From: Candidatus Halobonum tyrrellensis G22
GTDB taxonomy: Archaea > Halobacteriota > Halobacteria > Halobacteriales > Haloferacaceae
DNA length: 64,000 bases
NCBI RefSeq assembly: GCF_000495475.1
Contig: NZ_ASGZ01000028.1
Coordinates: 1-64,000 of the forward strand
Direction: 5' to 3'
Shown: positions 46,896 through 56,185 of the stretch, in pieces
Position numbering within the stretch: the first letter of the stretch is position 1
How the letters are laid out: each line of letters starts with the position of its first letter
Position numbers and translations under genes: made by a program
Notes under the pieces: model-generated
Database searches by the model: none
Told to the model about the DNA's origin: nothing
What the model saw: the letters and a program-made list of their open reading frames with translations, nothing else

Positions 46896-48272
46896 CTACT
46901 CGACGCCCGCGGTCTCGTCGTCGTCGAGGTGGCCGAACGGCCAGCCGCCGGTGTTGCGCATCCCCTCCTCGTACCCCTGTTCGACGGTCGCGTCGCGGAC
47001 CGCCTCGACCGACGCGTGTTCGACCTCGCGGTCGGCCTCGGCCAGTTTGACCACGCCGGCGGTCAGCCCCACCGCGAGGTCGCGGAAGTCCCGCAGGTCG
47101 AGTTTGTCGAGCGTGTCGCCGTGGGTGTGGCCCCACCCGCGGCCCGAGGTGTCCGACAGCGACCGCGCCTGCGCGCCCGCGATCCCCTCCTGGACGAACG
47201 GCCAGTGGTCGGAGTGGGGGCGGATATCCGACTGGACGGAGATGGGCACCGCGAGTTCGTCGCTCGCCTCGCGGAACGCGTCGCCGATCGCCTCGAACCC
47301 GTGGGTGTACACGTCGAGGTTCCGCGAGTAGCCCGCGCCGTCGATGTTGACGATGCACTTTACGTCCTCCGCGTCGTGGCTATCGACCCACTCGTACGCC
47401 CCGAACAGCCCCACCTCCTCGGCGCCGAACACGAGCAGGCGCACCCGGGTCTCCAGGTCGTCTTCGATCCCCGCGAGCAGGCGTCCAACCTCCGAGACGA
47501 GGACGGTGCCGGCGCCGTTGTCGTTCGCGCCCTCCGCGATGTCGTGGGCGTCGACGTGGGCGGTCACGAGCACCTCCTCGTCGGTGTCGGGACCGACGAC
47601 GGCCTCGACGTTCCGCGACTGGGTGGGTTCGTTCCGGCAGTCGACCGAGAGGTCCGCCTCGACCGTCCCGTCGGCGCAGTAGCGCACCAGTCGGTCGCCC
47701 ACCTCCTTCGAGACGCCGACCGCCGGGATCGGCCCCGGCCCGTCGTCGTCGCCGATGCTCCCCGTCGGGGGGAGACAGCCCTCGATGTGGTTGCGGAAGA
47801 GGAACGCGTCCGCGCCCGCCTTCGCCGCCGCGCCGTACTTCTCGGCGCGGTGGATCCACCGGCCGTAGTCGTCGGGCGTGTCGCTCGACGCCATCACGAT
47901 ACTCCCCTCCAGGTCGGCGTCCTCGAAGTCCTCGGGCAGGCCGTGGCCCACGTCGACCACCTCGGCGGTGACCTCGCCGCTCGGCGTTCCCGGGAGTTCG
48001 AGTATCTCGTGGGAGGCGTCGAACGTGTGGACCCGGCCGGGGTCGACGGTCAGCGAACACGGCCCCCGCCACCAGCCCGGAATCGGGAACTCCTCGACTT
48101 GCGCCTCCCGCAGGCCGTTCGCCTCGAACGCCTCCCGGACGAGTTCGGCCGCCTCGGCCTCGCCCTCCTGGCCGGCCATCCGGTTGTCGATGTCGACCAG
48201 GTCACGGAGGAGGTCCCACGAGTGGGTGCTGGTGTACGCGTCGCCGACGGTGTCGGGTGAGAGTGTCGTCAT
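46896..48272 (-). CDS. M28 family zinc aminopeptidase with PA domain
   Basis: Metallopeptidase of 458 residues. The catalytic domain has the M28 ligands in AHVDAHD, GANDNGAG, FGAEEVGLFG and NIDGAG, plus a late histidine (GHTHGDT). A PA-like insert lies about 90-190 (AKAGADAFLFRNHIEGCLPP). No signal peptide is visible, so it probably works inside the cell, unlike many secreted M28 enzymes. The substrate is likely small peptides. It is divergent from the TldD-like gene. Confidence 0.9.
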   Translation of the reverse strand: MTTLSPDTVGDAYTSTHSWDLLRDLVDIDNRMAGQEGEAEAAELVREAFEANGLREAQVEEFPIPGWWRGPCSLTVDPGRVHTFDASHEILELPGTPSGEVTAEVVDVGHGLPEDFEDADLEGSIVMASSDTPDDYGRWIHRAEKYGAAAKAGADAFLFRNHIEGCLPPTGSIGDDDGPGPIPAVGVSKEVGDRLVRYCADGTVEADLSVDCRNEPTQSRNVEAVVGPDTDEEVLVTAHVDAHDIAEGANDNGAGTVLVSEVGRLLAGIEDDLETRVRLLVFGAEEVGLFGAYEWVDSHDAEDVKCIVNIDGAGYSRNLDVYTHGFEAIGDAFREASDELAVPISVQSDIRPHSDHWPFVQEGIAGAQARSLSDTSGRGWGHTHGDTLDKLDLRDFRDLAVGLTAGVVKLAEADREVEHASVEAVRDATVEQGYEEGMRNTGGWPFGHLDDDETAGVE

Positions 48273-48375
48273 CTTCGGCTACTCTCCGGATTCGGAACGA
48301 CGCACATGGGTATTTGGTTAGCGGAAGGCGACGAACGTTTCGGGCAGTCGAAAGGAAACGGACGATCGGGCGATA

Positions 48376-48383
48376 GTTATACC
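48376..48383 (+). promoter_or_regulatory. Promoter of the TldD/PmbA-like gene
   Basis: GTTATACC at 48376-48383 lies 22-29 nt before ATG 48405. This is a good archaeal TATA box and fixes the start codon against the longer frame from 48306. Confidence 0.65.
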
Positions 48384-48404
48384 CCGGGACCCACCACCCG
48401 GGGT

Positions 48405-49982
48405 ATGGACGAGGCGGTCATCGACGCGAGCGAGGCGGTACTGGAGCGACTGGAGACCGACGACGACGTGGCGTACGCGGCGGTCGGCGGCGTCGACCGG
48501 CGGGTCGCGGACGCCGTCGTCGCCGACGGGCGCGTCCGGAGCGCGAACGACCTCCGCGAGACGGGCGTCTGGTGGCGGCTGTTCGCCGACGGCGCCGCCG
48601 ACTACCGGTACGTGACGACGCTCGACGACGACCACGTCGAAGAGGTGATCGCCCGGTCGCTCCGTTCGGCGCGGATGCTCGACCAGTCGACGCCCGCGTC
48701 GTACGACTGGGGGACGGTCCACCGCGCGACCCACCCCGGGTGGGGGGAGTCAAACGGACGGGGGACCACCGACGGGGGCGACACGGACGACCGCGAAGCG
48801 GTAGACGACGGCCGAGCGGTGGGTGACGGGGAGGCGGCGGACGACGGCGAGGGACGCGCGGTCCCGGCCGACGCGCGGGCTGAGCGGGTTCGGACCGCGC
48901 TCGCGGACGCGTTCGACGGGGTCGACGTGGACCTCGACCGGTCGCGGGCGACGCTCCGCGACGAACGCGTCGAGACGCTCGTGTCCACCACGACCGGTTC
49001 GGCGGTGCGGACCACGCTCGACCGCGCGTCCGTCGAGACGACGGTCGTCCCCGCGGGCGGGCCGACGCTCCACCGCCACGACGGCGCGACGACCGGCGAA
49101 CGCTTCCTCGACTCGCTCGCCGACCGGTTCGCCGACCTCGCCTCGCGGACGCGCGAGGCGGCCGCGGCCGACGAGGTGGCTCTCGACGCGTCGCCGCTCG
49201 CGGGCGGCGGCCGGGCGGACGTGGTGCTAGGACCGCTGGCGGCGGGCGAACTCCTCCATCACCTCTCGCACTACTTCGAGACCGACCTCGCGTACTTCGG
49301 GTCGAGTCCGGTCGACGTCGGCGACCGACTCGGCCCGGAGTCGCTGTCGGTCGCCGACGCGGTCCCGCCGGGGTCGTGGGCCGCCCGCGCGTACGACGCG
49401 GAGCCGCGACCCACCCAGCCGGTGTCGCTGGTCGACGACGGCGTCGTCCGCTCGCGCCTCCACGACGTCTCCACCGCCATCGAGGAGGAGACACACCCCG
49501 CGGGCCACCTGCTCCCGGCGCTCGGGTTCGACGGCCCGCCGCGGATCCACGCCCGCCACCTCGACGTGGCGGCGGGCGGGGCGAGCGAGACCGCACTCCG
49601 CGCGGACGCGGACCTCTACGTCGAACGGTTGGGGACGCCCCGGTTCGGCAACGAGGCGACCCGGACGAAGCGCGCGAGCACGATGCCGCCCAGCCCGCTG
49701 TACGCGAAGGACATCGCCGAGTCGACCCCCGCGGAGTTCGCCGACGAGGCCGACGACCAGAGCCTCCACCTGCCGGTCGACGAGGGGTACCTCCTCGACG
49801 GGGGCGACCGCGCGGCGCGCGTGACCGGCGTCGACCTGACGTTCGCGCCCGCCGACCTGCGAGCGGCGACGCTCGGCGGAACCAGACGCACGCTCACCGG
49901 AACCTGCGAGAAGCACAAGACCCGACTCCCGTTCGCCGTCACCGCTCCGGCGGTCCGACTCCCGCTCGTGGTCCGCGGTTGA
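48405..49982 (+). CDS. TldD/PmbA family protein without the HExxxH motif
   Basis: A 525-residue protein of the TldD/PmbA fold, known for processing peptide antibiotics and antitoxins. The family core ADVVLGPLAAGELLHHLSHYFETD is clear, but the zinc-binding HExxxH of TldD is not present; the place reads HHLSHYF. It therefore resembles the PmbA/TldE partner, which lacks a metal site. An acidic insert occurs near 115-160. No TldD partner is in the window. The start is set by the TATA box at 48376. Confidence 0.82.
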   Translation: MDEAVIDASEAVLERLETDDDVAYAAVGGVDRRVADAVVADGRVRSANDLRETGVWWRLFADGAADYRYVTTLDDDHVEEVIARSLRSARMLDQSTPASYDWGTVHRATHPGWGESNGRGTTDGGDTDDREAVDDGRAVGDGEAADDGEGRAVPADARAERVRTALADAFDGVDVDLDRSRATLRDERVETLVSTTTGSAVRTTLDRASVETTVVPAGGPTLHRHDGATTGERFLDSLADRFADLASRTREAAAADEVALDASPLAGGGRADVVLGPLAAGELLHHLSHYFETDLAYFGSSPVDVGDRLGPESLSVADAVPPGSWAARAYDAEPRPTQPVSLVDDGVVRSRLHDVSTAIEEETHPAGHLLPALGFDGPPRIHARHLDVAAGGASETALRADADLYVERLGTPRFGNEATRTKRASTMPPSPLYAKDIAESTPAEFADEADDQSLHLPVDEGYLLDGGDRAARVTGVDLTFAPADLRAATLGGTRRTLTGTCEKHKTRLPFAVTAPAVRLPLVVRG

Positions 49983-50127: not shown

Positions 50128-50135
50128 TTTTATAG
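50128..50135 (+). promoter_or_regulatory. TATA box of the ABC importer operon
   Basis: TTTTATAG at 50128-50135 precedes ATG 50162 by 27-34 nt, giving a short or absent leader. It follows the inverted repeat at 50103-50119. Confidence 0.65.
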
Positions 50136-50161: not shown

Positions 50162-51880
50162 ATGAAAGAGCCACGCAACGACTCGACACGGCGCCGCTTC
50201 CTACGAACCGTCGCGGGTGGTACAGTCGTCGGGACGACGGCCCTCGCGGGCTGTTCCGGCGAGAGCGACACGACGCCCGCGGCGACGACGGAGGAGGACG
50301 GCAGCGGATCGACGACCGAGAGCGGTGACGGGACGGAGGCCTCGGCCGGCGGCGCGGGCGAGGCGCTCCCGACGTACACCTACCTCAACAACCCCGCGAA
50401 CTACAACGCGGCGCGTCACGACGCGATCAACCTGATCGGCGAGCGGCTCAACCAGCTTGGTCTCGACGTGGGCGTCGAGGTGTTCGAGTGGGGGACGCTC
50501 TACGAGCGGGCGACCCAGGAGTTCGACTTCGGCTTTACGACGTGGAGCCGCGGGCTGGGACTGTACCCGGGCACCCGGATGCCCGAGCAGTTCCACTCGT
50601 CGAACACCGACCCCGGCCAGGGGAACTTCACGGGCTACACCAACGAGGACCTCGACCCGGTCCTGATGAACCAACTGCAGGAGGGCGACCGGTCGGCGCG
50701 CGTCGACATGCTCCACGAGATCCAGTCGGTGATCAACGAGGACGTGCCGATGCACCCGATCGTCCAGATGCCGAACCCGCTCGCGTTCAACAACAACCAG
50801 GTGAGCAACTGGACCGAGCACCTCGTCGGCTTCTACCACATGGAGCCGCAGACGAACGTCGAGGTGACCGCCGACCACGGCGAACTCCGGGGGTCGTGGT
50901 CGGAGACGCTGGGCACGCTGAACGTGCTCGGGTACAACAACGAGACGAAACTGATCCACCAGTTCGAGATGCTGTACGACAAACTGGTGCGGAACAACTC
51001 CAACCTCGAACCCGACGCGGACCTCAGCCTCGCCACGTCGTGGGAGAGCCCCGACGAGACGACGGTTCGCTACCAGATCCGCGAGGGTCACACCTGGCAC
51101 GACGGCGAGGACGTCACCCCCGAGGACGTCAAGTTCACGCTCGACTACATCAAGGAGAACCAGGTCCCGCTGTACGCGACCCAGTGGGAGATGTACGACT
51201 CCGTCGAAGTCGACGGCCAGTGGGTCCAGGTCAACTTCTCGAACCCGGTGGGGCCGGTCCACCAGACGTTCTCGAATCAGATCCCGATCGTCCCCCAGCA
51301 CATCTGGTCGGAGCGGAGCGACCCGACGAACGTCTCGGTCACCGAACCCGTCGGCTCGGGTCCGCTGATGTTCGACTACTGGGACCAGGGGAGCGAACTC
51401 AGCCTGGTGAGAAACGACGACCACTGGAACACGGTGAACTACGACCGCCGCATCTGGCGGATCATCCCCGAGAGTTCGACCGTCTGGTCGCTGCTGCTCG
51501 ACGGCACGCTCAACTACCTGCCGTTCACCCGGATCGGCAAACAGCTGAGCGACAACCAGAGCGAAGACCAGATCACGGTGCTGGCGCCGCCGGGCGACGG
51601 CTGGTGGCACCTGAGCCAGAACACGCGGCAGGGGGGTCTCGACGACCCCGTCGTCCGCCGCGCCGCGGTCCACTCCATCCCCAAGCAGGTGATCAACGAG
51701 CAACTGCTGTACGGGTTCGCCACGCAGGGGTGGAACCTGGTCGGCGAGTCGTTCGGCGACTACAGCAACCCGGAGGTCCCGAAGTACCAAGAGGAGAACG
51801 GCGTCGAGGTGGGCCGCGGTCTGATGGAGGAGGCGGGCTACACCTTCGACGACGACGGGATGGCGCACTTCCCGGAGTGA
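50162..51880 (+). CDS. Family 5 ABC substrate-binding lipoprotein, segment order apparently permuted
   Basis: Tat-exported lipoprotein of 572 residues (RRRFLR at 10-15, lipobox LAGC with Cys31), the solute-binding part of the importer encoded downstream. The family hallmarks occur in the wrong order. Residues 70-217 (GYTNEDLDPVLMNQ, DVPMHPIVQMPNP) match what is normally the C-terminal third. The usual N-terminal block (YDKLVRNNSNLEPDADLSLA, REGHTWHDGEDVTPEDVKF) is at 271-325. The usual late-middle block (DPVVRRAAVHSIPKQVINEQ, GLMEEAGYTFDDDG) closes the protein at 495-566. The signal and a Thr/Ser/Gly linker (32-68) precede all this. The ligand is probably peptide-like but is not proven. Confidence 0.9.
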   Translation: MKEPRNDSTRRRFLRTVAGGTVVGTTALAGCSGESDTTPAATTEEDGSGSTTESGDGTEASAGGAGEALPTYTYLNNPANYNAARHDAINLIGERLNQLGLDVGVEVFEWGTLYERATQEFDFGFTTWSRGLGLYPGTRMPEQFHSSNTDPGQGNFTGYTNEDLDPVLMNQLQEGDRSARVDMLHEIQSVINEDVPMHPIVQMPNPLAFNNNQVSNWTEHLVGFYHMEPQTNVEVTADHGELRGSWSETLGTLNVLGYNNETKLIHQFEMLYDKLVRNNSNLEPDADLSLATSWESPDETTVRYQIREGHTWHDGEDVTPEDVKFTLDYIKENQVPLYATQWEMYDSVEVDGQWVQVNFSNPVGPVHQTFSNQIPIVPQHIWSERSDPTNVSVTEPVGSGPLMFDYWDQGSELSLVRNDDHWNTVNYDRRIWRIIPESSTVWSLLLDGTLNYLPFTRIGKQLSDNQSEDQITVLAPPGDGWWHLSQNTRQGGLDDPVVRRAAVHSIPKQVINEQLLYGFATQGWNLVGESFGDYSNPEVPKYQEENGVEVGRGLMEEAGYTFDDDGMAHFPE

Positions 51881-51901: not shown

Positions 51902-52879
51902 ATGGGCAAACTCAACTTCTTCGTACGGCGGACGGCGCAGTTGGTCGTCACCCTCTGGGCCGTGGCGACGGCGCTGTTCATGCTGTTCCGGCTGATGCCG
52001 GGCGACCCCACGTCGTACATCGTCTCGCCGCAGATGACCCCGGAGGTGCGACAGCGCATCATCGAGAGCTACGGGCTCAACGACCCGCTGTGGGTCCAGT
52101 ACCTCCGGTACATCGAGAACCTCGCGACGCTCGACCTCGGGCGGTCGTTCAACACCAACTCCGAGGTGTCGGAGATACTGGCGACGTACCTGCCGAACAC
52201 GCTGGTGTTGATGCTGTCGGCGTTCGTGCTCGCGTACGCCGTCGGCGTCACGCTGGGCGTGCTCACCGGCTGGTACCGCGGGTCGCGCTTCGAGAAGAGC
52301 ACGGTCGTCACGGCGCTGGTCGGGCGGAGCATCCCGAGCTTCTGGGTCGGCATCCTCGTCATCTGGGTGTTCGGCGCGACGTTCGGGGTGATCCCGCTGA
52401 GCGGCATGACGAGCATCGGCACCGAACCCGAGGGCTTCGTCGACATGGTCACGTCGCTCGACTTCCTCCACCACTTGGTCGCGCCGATGCTGGTGCTCGC
52501 GTTCTACTACATGGGCTACCCGCTGTTGATCATGCGCAACAGCATGCTCGAAACCCTCTCGGAGGACTTCATCGACATCTGTCGCGCGAAGGGGCTCTCC
52601 GAGCGGGCGATCATGTTCAGACACGCCGCCCGCAACGCGATGCTCCCCGTGCTCACGGCGGCGGCGATCGCCGTGGGGTTCGCCATCGGCGGGAGCGTCC
52701 TGATCGAGACGGTGTTCGGCTGGCCCGGCATCGGTCGGGAGATGATCCGCGCGGTGATGCGCCGCGACTACCCGGTGGCGCAGGGGACGTTCCTCGTCCT
52801 CGCGCTGTCGGTGGTGCTGATGAACTTCGTCGCGGACCTGCTGTACGGGGTCCTCGACCCGCGGGTGACGTACGAATGA
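51902..52879 (+). CDS. dppB: Peptide-type ABC transporter permease, DppB family
   Basis: Inner-membrane permease of 325 residues with about six helices. The N-terminal part FVRRTAQLVVTLWAVATALF and RLMPGDPT are DppB/OppB signatures. The EAA loop is ARNAMLPVLTAAAIAVGF followed by GGSVLIETVFGWPGIG. A Shine-Dalgarno-like GGAGG lies 9-13 nt before ATG 51902. Second gene of the operon. Confidence 0.94.
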   Translation: MGKLNFFVRRTAQLVVTLWAVATALFMLFRLMPGDPTSYIVSPQMTPEVRQRIIESYGLNDPLWVQYLRYIENLATLDLGRSFNTNSEVSEILATYLPNTLVLMLSAFVLAYAVGVTLGVLTGWYRGSRFEKSTVVTALVGRSIPSFWVGILVIWVFGATFGVIPLSGMTSIGTEPEGFVDMVTSLDFLHHLVAPMLVLAFYYMGYPLLIMRNSMLETLSEDFIDICRAKGLSERAIMFRHAARNAMLPVLTAAAIAVGFAIGGSVLIETVFGWPGIGREMIRAVMRRDYPVAQGTFLVLALSVVLMNFVADLLYGVLDPRVTYE

Positions 52880-52907: not shown

Positions 52908-53885
52908 ATGAGTCAGAAACACGAACGGTCGATATTCGCGGACGTCGAGGAGTACGAATCGGACGAGGAGTTCAGCGCGTGGCGGCGCAACCTCCGCCTC
53001 TGGCGGTCGACGCTGTCCGAACAGTGGCGACTCCTGACCGACGACAGCCTGGTGGTCGCCGCGATGGCGATCCTCGGGGGGTTCATCCTGCTCGCGTTCG
53101 TCGCGCCCGTCGTCGCCCCGCACGACCCGCTCGAACGGATGTACACCGAAAGCGGGCTGATCGCCAAGTGGATCGAGCCGTCGTTCCTCGGCGGCGAGGG
53201 CGACTTTCTGCTCGGCACCACCGCCCAGGGGTACGACATCTTCAGCCAACTGGTGTACGGCGCCCGACCGGCGCTGCTCGTGGGGTTCGTCGCCGCGGTG
53301 ATGACCGTCGGCATCGGCACCATGGTGGGGCTGACCGCGGGCTACTACGGCGGCTACGTCGACGACTTCCTGATGCGGCTGGTCGACTTCGTCTACGGGC
53401 TGCCGCTGCTCCCGACGGTGATCGTCTTGGTGACCGTGCTCGGAGCGGGTCTCGACAGCATCATCCTCGCGTTCGTGCTGTTGCAGTGGCGCACCTCCGC
53501 GCGGGTGATCCGCGCGCTCGTGTTGTCGCTGCGCGAACGCGCGTTCGTCAAGGCCGCCCGCGTGTCGGGCGCGAGCAACTGGCGGATCCTCTCGCGACAC
53601 ATCGCGCCGAACGTGCTCCCGATGGCGTTCCTCTACGGCGCGTTCGCGATCGCGTGGGCGATCCTGACGGAGGCCGGGGTGTCGTTCCTCGGGCTGGGCG
53701 ACCCCAACAGCGTCTCGTGGGGCGTGATGCTCCAGGGCGCGCGCGTCTACAGCGCGATGACCGAGGGGACGTGGTGGTGGTTCGTGCCGCCGGGCGTCTG
53801 TATCGCGCTCGTCGTGATCAGCGGCTTCCTGATCGGCCGCGGCTACGAGGAGATCGTCAACCCCGAACTGCAGGTGGAACAGTGA
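52908..53885 (+). CDS. dppC: Peptide-type ABC transporter permease, DppC family
   Basis: Partner permease of 325 residues. It has a soluble N-terminal stretch (about 1-45), a helix at 50-70, LLGTTAQGYDIFSQLVYGAR (the DppC GTDxxGRD-like region in altered form) and the EAA loop APNVLPMAFLYGAFAIAWAIL with SFLGLGDPNSVSWGVML. It ends overlapping a tiny GTG frame by 4 nt. Third gene of the operon. Confidence 0.94.
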   Translation: MSQKHERSIFADVEEYESDEEFSAWRRNLRLWRSTLSEQWRLLTDDSLVVAAMAILGGFILLAFVAPVVAPHDPLERMYTESGLIAKWIEPSFLGGEGDFLLGTTAQGYDIFSQLVYGARPALLVGFVAAVMTVGIGTMVGLTAGYYGGYVDDFLMRLVDFVYGLPLLPTVIVLVTVLGAGLDSIILAFVLLQWRTSARVIRALVLSLRERAFVKAARVSGASNWRILSRHIAPNVLPMAFLYGAFAIAWAILTEAGVSFLGLGDPNSVSWGVMLQGARVYSAMTEGTWWWFVPPGVCIALVVISGFLIGRGYEEIVNPELQVEQ

Positions 53886-53968
53886 GCGTTCCGACGCGCG
53901 CGGCGGTCACGACGCCCGCCGCGGCCGCCGGGACCGCGCCCGACCGCCCGACGGGGGTGGGTCGCTGA
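53882..53968 (+). CDS. Possible bridging mini-ORF between dppC and dppD
   Basis: GTG 53882 overlaps the dppC stop (GTGA). A 28-codon frame then runs to TGA 53966-53968, which overlaps the dppD ATG 53968 by one base (TGATG). The peptide is Ala/Thr/Pro-rich (VSVPTRAAVTTPAAAAG) and shows no fold, so its use may be to carry ribosomes across the gap rather than to make a protein. Confidence 0.35.
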   Translation: MSVPTRAAVTTPAAAAGTAPDRPTGVGR

Positions 53969-55008
53969 TGGCGATGCTCGAAGTCGAAGACCTCAAGGTG
54001 TACTACGACACCGCCGAGGGCGCGGTGAAGGCGGTCGACGGCGTCAGCTTCGAGATCGAGGAGGGCGAGAACCTCGGGATCGTCGGCGAGTCGGGCTGCG
54101 GCAAGAGCACGCTCGCGAAGGCGCTGATCGGCATCCTCCCGCAGAACGGCTACATCGCGGGCGGCGAGATCCGCTTCCGCGGCGAGGACCTCACCGAGGC
54201 GCCCGAACGCCGCCGGCGGGAACTCCGCTGGGACGAGATATCGATGATCGCCCAGTCGGCGATGAACGCGCTCGACCCGGTGTACACGATCCGCCAGCAG
54301 ATCCTCGAAGCGATCGAGGCGCACCACAACTGGAGTCGGACGAAGTCCCAAGAGCGGATCGACGAGATGTTCGACCTCGTGGGGCTCGACCGGGAGCGCC
54401 AGACCGACTACCCCCACCAGTTCTCCGGCGGGATGCGCCAGCGCGCGATGATCGCGATGTCGCTCGTGCTCGAACCGTCGCTGATCCTGGCGGACGAGCC
54501 GACGACGGCGCTCGACGTGATCATGCAAGACCAGATCCTCAAGCGGATCAACGAGATCCAGGAGGCGTCGAGCGCGTCGATGATGGTGATCACCCACGAC
54601 GTGGCCGTCGTCGCCGAGACGTGCGACCGGGTCGTCGTGATGTACGCCGGCGAGATCGCGGAGGAGGGACCCGCCGCGGCCATCTTCGACGAACCGTACC
54701 ACCCGTACACGCTGGGACTGAAGAGCGCGTTCCCGAACATCCGCGAGGCCGACCAGGACCTCGTGAGCATCGGCGGCCACCCGCCGGATCTGCACGACCC
54801 GCCGACCGGCTGCCGGTTCGCCGAGCGCTGCCCGATGGCGACCGAGGTCTGTTCACGGGAGGACCCGCCGGAGGTCGAGGTGGGCGGGCTCCGGTCGTAC
54901 TGTCACCACGTCGACGACATCGACACGCAGCTCAGACCGGTCGCCGACCGGGCGGAGACGTGGCAGAACACCGACGCGGCCGACGACAGGGGGCTCGCAG
55001 ATGACTGA
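53968..55008 (+). CDS. dppD: Peptide-type ABC transporter ATPase, DppD family
   Basis: ATPase of 346 residues. Walker A is GESGCGKS at 40-47, the signature is FSGGMRQRAMIAM, Walker B is ILADEPTTALD, and the switch histidine is in VITHDVAVVAETC. The C-terminal oligopeptide-transporter extension has the Cys motif CRFAERCPMATEVC, a likely Fe-S site seen in this family. ATG 53968 is preferred. It overlaps the next gene by 8 nt. Confidence 0.95.
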   Translation: MAMLEVEDLKVYYDTAEGAVKAVDGVSFEIEEGENLGIVGESGCGKSTLAKALIGILPQNGYIAGGEIRFRGEDLTEAPERRRRELRWDEISMIAQSAMNALDPVYTIRQQILEAIEAHHNWSRTKSQERIDEMFDLVGLDRERQTDYPHQFSGGMRQRAMIAMSLVLEPSLILADEPTTALDVIMQDQILKRINEIQEASSASMMVITHDVAVVAETCDRVVVMYAGEIAEEGPAAAIFDEPYHPYTLGLKSAFPNIREADQDLVSIGGHPPDLHDPPTGCRFAERCPMATEVCSREDPPEVEVGGLRSYCHHVDDIDTQLRPVADRAETWQNTDAADDRGLADD

Positions 55009-56185
55009 CAGAGACACCGAGACTGACGTTCACACCGACGGCGGCACCGAGACGGGCGCCGACCCGACCGGCGAGCGCGCGGACGCGAGCACGGACGACG
55101 ACGTGCTCGTCCGCGTCGACGGGCTGAAGAAGCACTTCCCGGTCGACAGCGGGCTGGTCAGCGACCTGATGAACACGATCCGCGGCGAGGACTCGAAGAT
55201 GGTCCACGCCGTCGACGGCGTCTCGTTCGAACTCCGGGCGGGCGAGACGTTCGGCATCGCGGGCGAGTCGGGCTGCGGGAAGACGACCACGGGGATGTCG
55301 TTGGCGAAGCTGTACGAACCCACCGACGGGAGCATCTACTACGACGGCGACGACATCGCGAACAAGACGGGCAAGGATCTGTCGACGTTCCGGCAGAACG
55401 CCCAGATGATCTTCCAGGACCCCTTCGAGAGTCTCAACCCCCAGATGACGGTGTACGACACCGTCGTCGAACCCCTCCGCATCCACGACCGGCCGAACCA
55501 GCGCGCGCGGGTCCGGCGCGCACTGGAGTTCGCGGGGCTGCGGCCGCCCGACCAGTTCTTCGACCAGTACCCCCACGAACTGTCGGGCGGGCAGCGCCAG
55601 CGGCTCGCCATCGCGCGCGCGCTCGTCATCGACCCCGACTTCATCGTCGCCGACGAGCCGGTGTCGATGCTCGACGTGAGCCTCCGGGCGGGCGTGCTCT
55701 CGCTTCTCGAGCGGATGACCGACGAGTTCGGGCTCTCGGTGGTGTACATCAGCCACGACCTCTCGCTTCTCAGGCACATGTGCGACCGGATCGCGATCAT
55801 GTACATGGGGAAGATCGTCGAGCAGGGACCGACCGAGGAGATCATCACGAACCCCAAACACCCCTACACCCGCTCGCTGATCGACGCGGTGCCGGTGCCC
55901 GACCCCCACTCGCAGCGCGAACGGGTCGAACTGGAGGGTGAAGTGGGCGACGCGATCAACGTCCCCTCGGGCTGTCGGTTCAAGGGCCGGTGTGAGGAGC
56001 ACATCGGTCCGGTCTGCGACCAAGTGACTCCGCGATTAGAGCGGAAGGCCGACGTCGAGGGCGGCCGCGAGGTGGCGTGTCACCTCTACGAGAGCGCCGA
56101 GGGGTTCGACCCGTACGCGGAGGTCGGCACCGCGGACGCGGACGCCGATTCCGATGGGTCGGCGCGGGCGCCGGGCGACGACTGA
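55001..56185 (+). CDS. dppF: Peptide-type ABC transporter ATPase, DppF family
   Basis: Second ATPase, 394 residues, with a 40-residue Asp/Thr-rich N-terminal extension. Walker A GESGCGKTT, signature LSGGQRQRLAIARAL, Walker B FIVADEPVSMLD and YISHDLSLLRHMC are present. The Cys extension reads CRFKGRCEEHIGPVC. The C-terminus is an acidic tail. It is the last gene of the operon and starts inside dppD (ATGACTGA). Confidence 0.95.
   Translation: MTDRDTETDVHTDGGTETGADPTGERADASTDDDVLVRVDGLKKHFPVDSGLVSDLMNTIRGEDSKMVHAVDGVSFELRAGETFGIAGESGCGKTTTGMSLAKLYEPTDGSIYYDGDDIANKTGKDLSTFRQNAQMIFQDPFESLNPQMTVYDTVVEPLRIHDRPNQRARVRRALEFAGLRPPDQFFDQYPHELSGGQRQRLAIARALVIDPDFIVADEPVSMLDVSLRAGVLSLLERMTDEFGLSVVYISHDLSLLRHMCDRIAIMYMGKIVEQGPTEEIITNPKHPYTRSLIDAVPVPDPHSQRERVELEGEVGDAINVPSGCRFKGRCEEHIGPVCDQVTPRLERKADVEGGREVACHLYESAEGFDPYAEVGTADADADSDGSARAPGDD

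Follow-up and report, generated by a model that had tools for sequence, protein, structure and literature searches.

A circularly permuted family-5 solute-binding protein predicted from the first gene of a Dpp/Opp-type ABC import operon of Candidatus Halobonum tyrrellensis G22

The window analysed here, a 64,000-nucleotide stretch of Candidatus Halobonum tyrrellensis G22, contains a five-gene ABC import operon, the first gene of which, ORF 50162-51880 (+), encodes a protein of 572 aa at the place and in the frame given by the initial annotation (Table 1). The presence of two permease and two oligo_HPY ATPase genes in one operon assigns the system to the Dpp/Opp type. The N-terminus of the protein, by reading, carries a Tat motif followed by a lipobox (RRRF..LAGC within residues 10-31, with the lipobox cysteine at position 31), as is typical for archaeal lipoproteins, and both the RR and the cysteine region are kept in its haloarchaeal relatives. 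A long ORF on the opposite strand (50201-51868) and further overlapping frames were taken as products of the high G+C content.

Table 1. Promoter candidate, protein segments and neighbouring genes of ORF 50162-51880 (positions in the window)
Feature	Position	Strand	Basis or remark
Neighbouring, divergent gene for an M28 family peptidase with PA domain	46896..48272	-	Pfam PF04389
TldD/PmbA-related metallopeptidase-like gene adjoining the operon	48306..49982	+	Pfam PF19289
TATA-like element TTTTATAG, candidate archaeal operon promoter	50128..50135	+	~27 bases before the start codon; by-eye reading; promoter scan covers sigma-70 sites only
Twin-arginine-type signal peptide (RRRF) with lipobox cysteine end (LAGC), residues 1-31	50162..50254	+	Sequence
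Acidic Ser/Thr/Gly-rich tether from lipid anchor to domain, residues 32-67	50255..50362	+	Sequence
Canonical C-terminal SBP_bac_5 segment, placed first, residues 69-235	50366..50866	+	Profile 336-468; AppA 368-496
Link TADHGE between old C-terminal and old N-terminal strands, residues 236-241	50867..50884	+	Alignment with DppA/OppA ends; conserved L242..G244..W246
Canonical N-terminal and middle SBP_bac_5 segment, placed second, residues 242-572	50885..51877	+	Pfam PF00496 6-284; profile 6-327
ABC permease 1 (BPD_transp_1 with BPD_transp_1_N)	51902..52879	+	Pfam
ABC permease 2 (BPD_transp_1 with OppC_N)	52908..53885	+	Pfam
ABC ATPase with oligo_HPY C-terminal region (OppD/DppD type)	53968..55008	+	Pfam
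ABC ATPase with oligo_HPY C-terminal region (OppF/DppF type)	55001..56185	+	Pfam

We found that the operon order is kept in 26 of the 29 relatives whose flanks are complete; of these 29, 25 have a TldD-related gene nearby and 16 an M28 peptidase gene. An annotated M28 gene adjoins the permuted solute-binding protein (SBP) gene in Natrialba, Haloprofundus, Halomarina, Ketogulonicigenium and Roseomonas. The linkage of the operon to genes for M28 and TldD-type peptidases makes a peptide or a peptide-like compound the most likely ligand. In DppA and OppA, the aspartate that follows a conserved tryptophan of lobe II (WTGD and WCAD, respectively) pairs with the amino end of the peptide. The ORF 50162-51880 protein has WSRG at this column; thus, the Trp-x-x-Asp signature of DppA and OppA is not kept, and the binding of ordinary peptides with a free amino end is not assured. 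The TldD-related protein (48306-49982) seems, by reading, to lack the zinc-binding HExxxH, with LLHHLSHYFETD at that place, and may represent a non-catalytic or TldE-like partner.

The SBP belongs to family 5, as the Pfam model SBP_bac_5 (PF00496) matches it with 188.3 bits against a curated cut-off of 32.4. Positions 6-284 of the 368 in this model match residues 290-566, which lie at the C-terminus, and the model's final portion, usually found there, is absent from this place. A phmmer comparison with solved structures paired residues 269-561 with AppA 50-345 (i-Evalue 2.8e-15) and residues 80-210 with AppA 368-496 (8.5e-6), so that the halves appear swapped; the halves are swapped identically with respect to 5u4o. 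As a permutation-aware test we built a profile from 29 proteins in canonical order and used it both singly and doubled head-to-tail (2 x 486). With the single profile, the protein is matched in two pieces, residues 79-216 to profile positions 336-468 and residues 245-565 to positions 6-327, whereas the doubled profile gives one co-linear match from position 336 to 813, scoring 239.7 bits versus 169.8 for the best single piece. For DppA, OppA and other canonical controls the gain from doubling is at most about 3 bits. Three of the 29 profile proteins (L002, L150 and L156) turned out to be permuted at another place; a second profile, from which the L002 group was left out, returned identical classes.

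Taken together, the single and doubled profiles cover the circle almost completely and only once: all SBP_bac_5 segments are present, none is duplicated, and the segment that is C-terminal in the canonical order stands first. Coverage of the circle once speaks for a circular permutation and not for an added domain, and the profile evidence confirms the proposal of the initial annotation that the product is a complete family-5 SBP with a permuted chain. The block limits given there (70-217 and 251-330) proved about right, the exact segments being ~69-235 and ~242-571. Standard family matches catch only part of such proteins, which is of relevance for annotation.

The chain stops just past the EAGY helix, which places the breakpoint between this helix and the next strand. 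At the other end of the rearrangement, a link of about 6 residues joins the columns where DppA and OppA end and begin, as determined by column alignment. Using a lobe assignment that we take from general knowledge of DppA and OppA structures, the old C-terminal and N-terminal strands would be fused in lobe I through this link, and the new ends would lie in a lobe II surface loop that follows this helix. AlphaFold models of the protein and of its Halorussus relative (mean pLDDT 74.7 and 75.3, pTM 0.70 and 0.66) are of moderate confidence overall and weak at the junction and the lobe crossing. The predicted order of strands and helices over the first 145 residues is that of the usual end of the fold. 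In sequential Foldseek alignments of these moderate models, the best matches listed are SBPs of the family-5 type, and the alignments take in ~350 of ~506 residues, as expected with one segment out of order. Among the matches shown to solved structures, none runs co-linearly across the junction. The moderate-confidence models do not show a canonical order, the outcome that would have refuted the initial annotation; they agree with the permutation and do not in themselves prove the fold.

All domain parts of the canonical family-5, or cluster C, SBPs (DppA, OppA, AppA, NikA; PF00496) are common to the ORF 50162-51880 protein. Likewise, it resembles them in its export (as lipoprotein or to the periplasm) and in having its gene at the head of an ABC operon that also encodes two permeases and oligo_HPY ATPases. 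In contrast to them, its order is rotated by about one third, with profile positions ~336-486 ahead of ~1-327, and its tether would exit lobe II. The nearest described system, of another SBP class, is Treponema pallidum Tp0684 (TpMglB-2), designated 'Type Ic / Cluster Bc' (PMC4990184). It, too, is a natural circularly permuted, lipid-anchored SBP that serves an ABC importer and has relatives sharing its topology, but it is a cluster B sugar binder with the breakpoint in the N lobe and a fourth hinge crossing, and its type occurs mainly in spirochaetes and Gram-positive bacteria (PMC4990184). The ORF 50162-51880 protein has only SBP_bac_5 matches and a different breakpoint, which sets it apart from cluster Bc. 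Our search of the literature, which covered open-access papers, yielded no account of a permuted family-5 SBP, in line with the initial annotation, which knew of none.

The order described above (type I) is by no means confined to this gene. The source genome holds two paralogues in permuted order (L005 and L007), 57-58% identical, and the A/B profile detects the same B-A order at every one of the 32 named haloarchaeal loci, so that the similar haloarchaeal sequences mentioned in the initial annotation do exist. The two permuted paralogues (L199:6850-8649 and L200:2314-4122) have no permease or oligo_HPY operon nearby; they may be orphan binding proteins sharing the transporter of the 50162-51880 operon. 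A scan of the genome collection with three close paralogues matched nothing, and a wider alignment was used instead. At E <= 1e-28, a junction profile has matches in 48 of the 393 genomes of the phylum, all with the order of ORF 50162-51880. The class-level tally of 257 of 292 genomes at E <= 1e-15 represents an upper bound, as at that cut-off the source genome scores 5 although its type I proteins number 3. We also observed a second large haloarchaeal type I group with longer frames (~640-670 codons) in many genomes (L024, L027, L030, L031, L053 and L054).

Comparison of the spread beyond the haloarchaea revealed the same order and breakpoint in Alphaproteobacteria from soil and marine habitats, i.e., at six loci on named plasmids of Nitratireductor, Neorhizobium, Maritalea, Microvirga, Ketogulonicigenium and Roseomonas, assigned by profile order. 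The signal peptides of these alphaproteobacterial members, by reading, lack a lipobox. Coverage of the junction by tblastn alone is no proof of permutation, and every bacterial assignment rests on profile order; a Variovorax locus (L069) with 82% tblastn coverage is canonical by this measure and was rejected. A scan of viral contigs gave no match. In a tree built from the common segment (86 rows), 48 type I sequences cluster, and the AU test does not reject a constraint that makes them a single clade (p 0.615), the constrained tree scoring slightly better. The bacterial copies sit among the haloarchaeal ones, which implies transfer between domains of life.

The doubled profile exposed three further breakpoint classes besides type I, a recurrence that the initial annotation had missed. 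In type II proteins (L153 in G005, L029 in G057 and L037 in G041), the opening precedes the EAGY helix. The nesting of L153 within canonical proteins marks this case as independent, and one clade of types I and II, with it a shared origin, is rejected (AU p 1e-7). In type IV, represented by Subdoligranulum variabile L068:3897-5699 (plasmid record OY725879.1), profile positions 104-472 are followed by 1-101 and a Ser-rich C-terminal tail.

In turn, in type III (L002/L162, L150, L156 and relatives), the last ~60 residues stand first. The source genome encodes this type (L162, G000:C44:29685-31343; L192:5632-7344; relatives L163-L173) as a lipoprotein in an ABC operon; it thus shares with type I the family, the kind of rearrangement, the lipoprotein nature and the operon type, but differs in its breakpoint and in an independent and far more recent origin, and the other members of its clade are canonical. 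Its canonical near-orthologues (L174-L191) are 60-68% identical and syntenic. The group as a whole consists of 12 permuted and 20 canonical relatives, with core identity mostly of 57-68%, identity of the 47-residue tail mostly of 63-83% wherever the tail sits, and operons syntenic between permuted and canonical members. As a rule, natural circular permutations come to light only long after they occurred. The type III split is so recent (60-68% identity, same operon) that the route, cost and tolerance of a permutation become testable in living cells.

Altogether, the source genome encodes 14 family-5 SBPs, 10 of them canonical; judged by their sequences, the 4 permuted ones stem from two independent events. 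We are highly confident that type I forms a large cross-domain subclass of haloarchaeal and alphaproteobacterial proteins, that at least four breakpoint classes exist, that two independent events are represented in the source genome and that this fold has been permuted repeatedly. The openings accepted by evolution in an OppA-like protein may serve as a guide for biosensor design.

An artefact of assembly or a wrong start codon might be suspected in a draft genome of 72 contigs. It is refuted by independent genomes, as the same order stands in one uninterrupted frame at three loci of the source genome and in 32 named records, which come from separate projects and include several complete ones, and its probability is practically nil. 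Hardly more can be granted to a complete canonical SBP with an unrelated or duplicated domain added at the N-terminus. The Pfam match that begins only at residue 290 makes the first half look extra, and the initial annotation had itself considered this reading for residues 70-217, yet residues 79-216 correspond to the C-terminal part of the family itself, a part that is missing from the C-terminus, and the single match around the full circle refutes the addition. The segment order could also be real and the molecule a domain-swapped dimer, in which segments of different chains complete one SBP fold. The low model confidence at the junction and the shortness of the link (about 6 residues) would fit such a dimer; nevertheless, we regard it as quite improbable, given that the link joins the very columns of the DppA and OppA ends, so that no swap is needed, and that the order is kept across many relatives with varied links.

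A different question is whether the permutation is adaptive, i.e., whether moving the tether to lobe II improves the presentation of the cleft or docking face at the archaeal surface in high salt, as the initial annotation supposed. Among the haloarchaeal members, those whose starts were read have the appearance of Tat lipoproteins in which a long acidic linker precedes the permuted domain, and an anchoring advantage was raised by the authors of the Tp0684 study for their permuted SBP (PMC4990184). However, the bacterial members with the same breakpoint are not haloarchaeal and have no lipobox, so that lipid anchoring and high salt both fail as explanations of the permutation. Moreover, most family-5 SBPs of the source genome stay canonical, and other permuted SBPs open elsewhere, leaving the position of the tether inconstant. 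The supposition is thus not supported, and we consider an adaptive origin unlikely.

Instead, the ORF 50162-51880 product is very probably a lipid-anchored, circularly permuted family-5 SBP of a Dpp/Opp-type importer, of an order that arose once in its clade, spread by transfer and was tolerated. As the substrate-binding subunit, it would work by the ordinary mechanism, with two lobes closing on the ligand and docking on the permease pair, and the exit of the lipid tether from lobe II instead of lobe I would be the sole mechanical difference. The type I permutation most likely had a one-time origin, probably through in-frame tandem duplication followed by trimming, after which gene transfer would have spread it between haloarchaea and Alphaproteobacteria, the new order being tolerated and not selected for anchoring or salt. 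We also noted one open frame of 1582 residues (L147/L155, G038:C1:2362605-2365421) with two tandem family-5 SBP domains, a type of intermediate that a duplication route to permutation would be expected to pass through.
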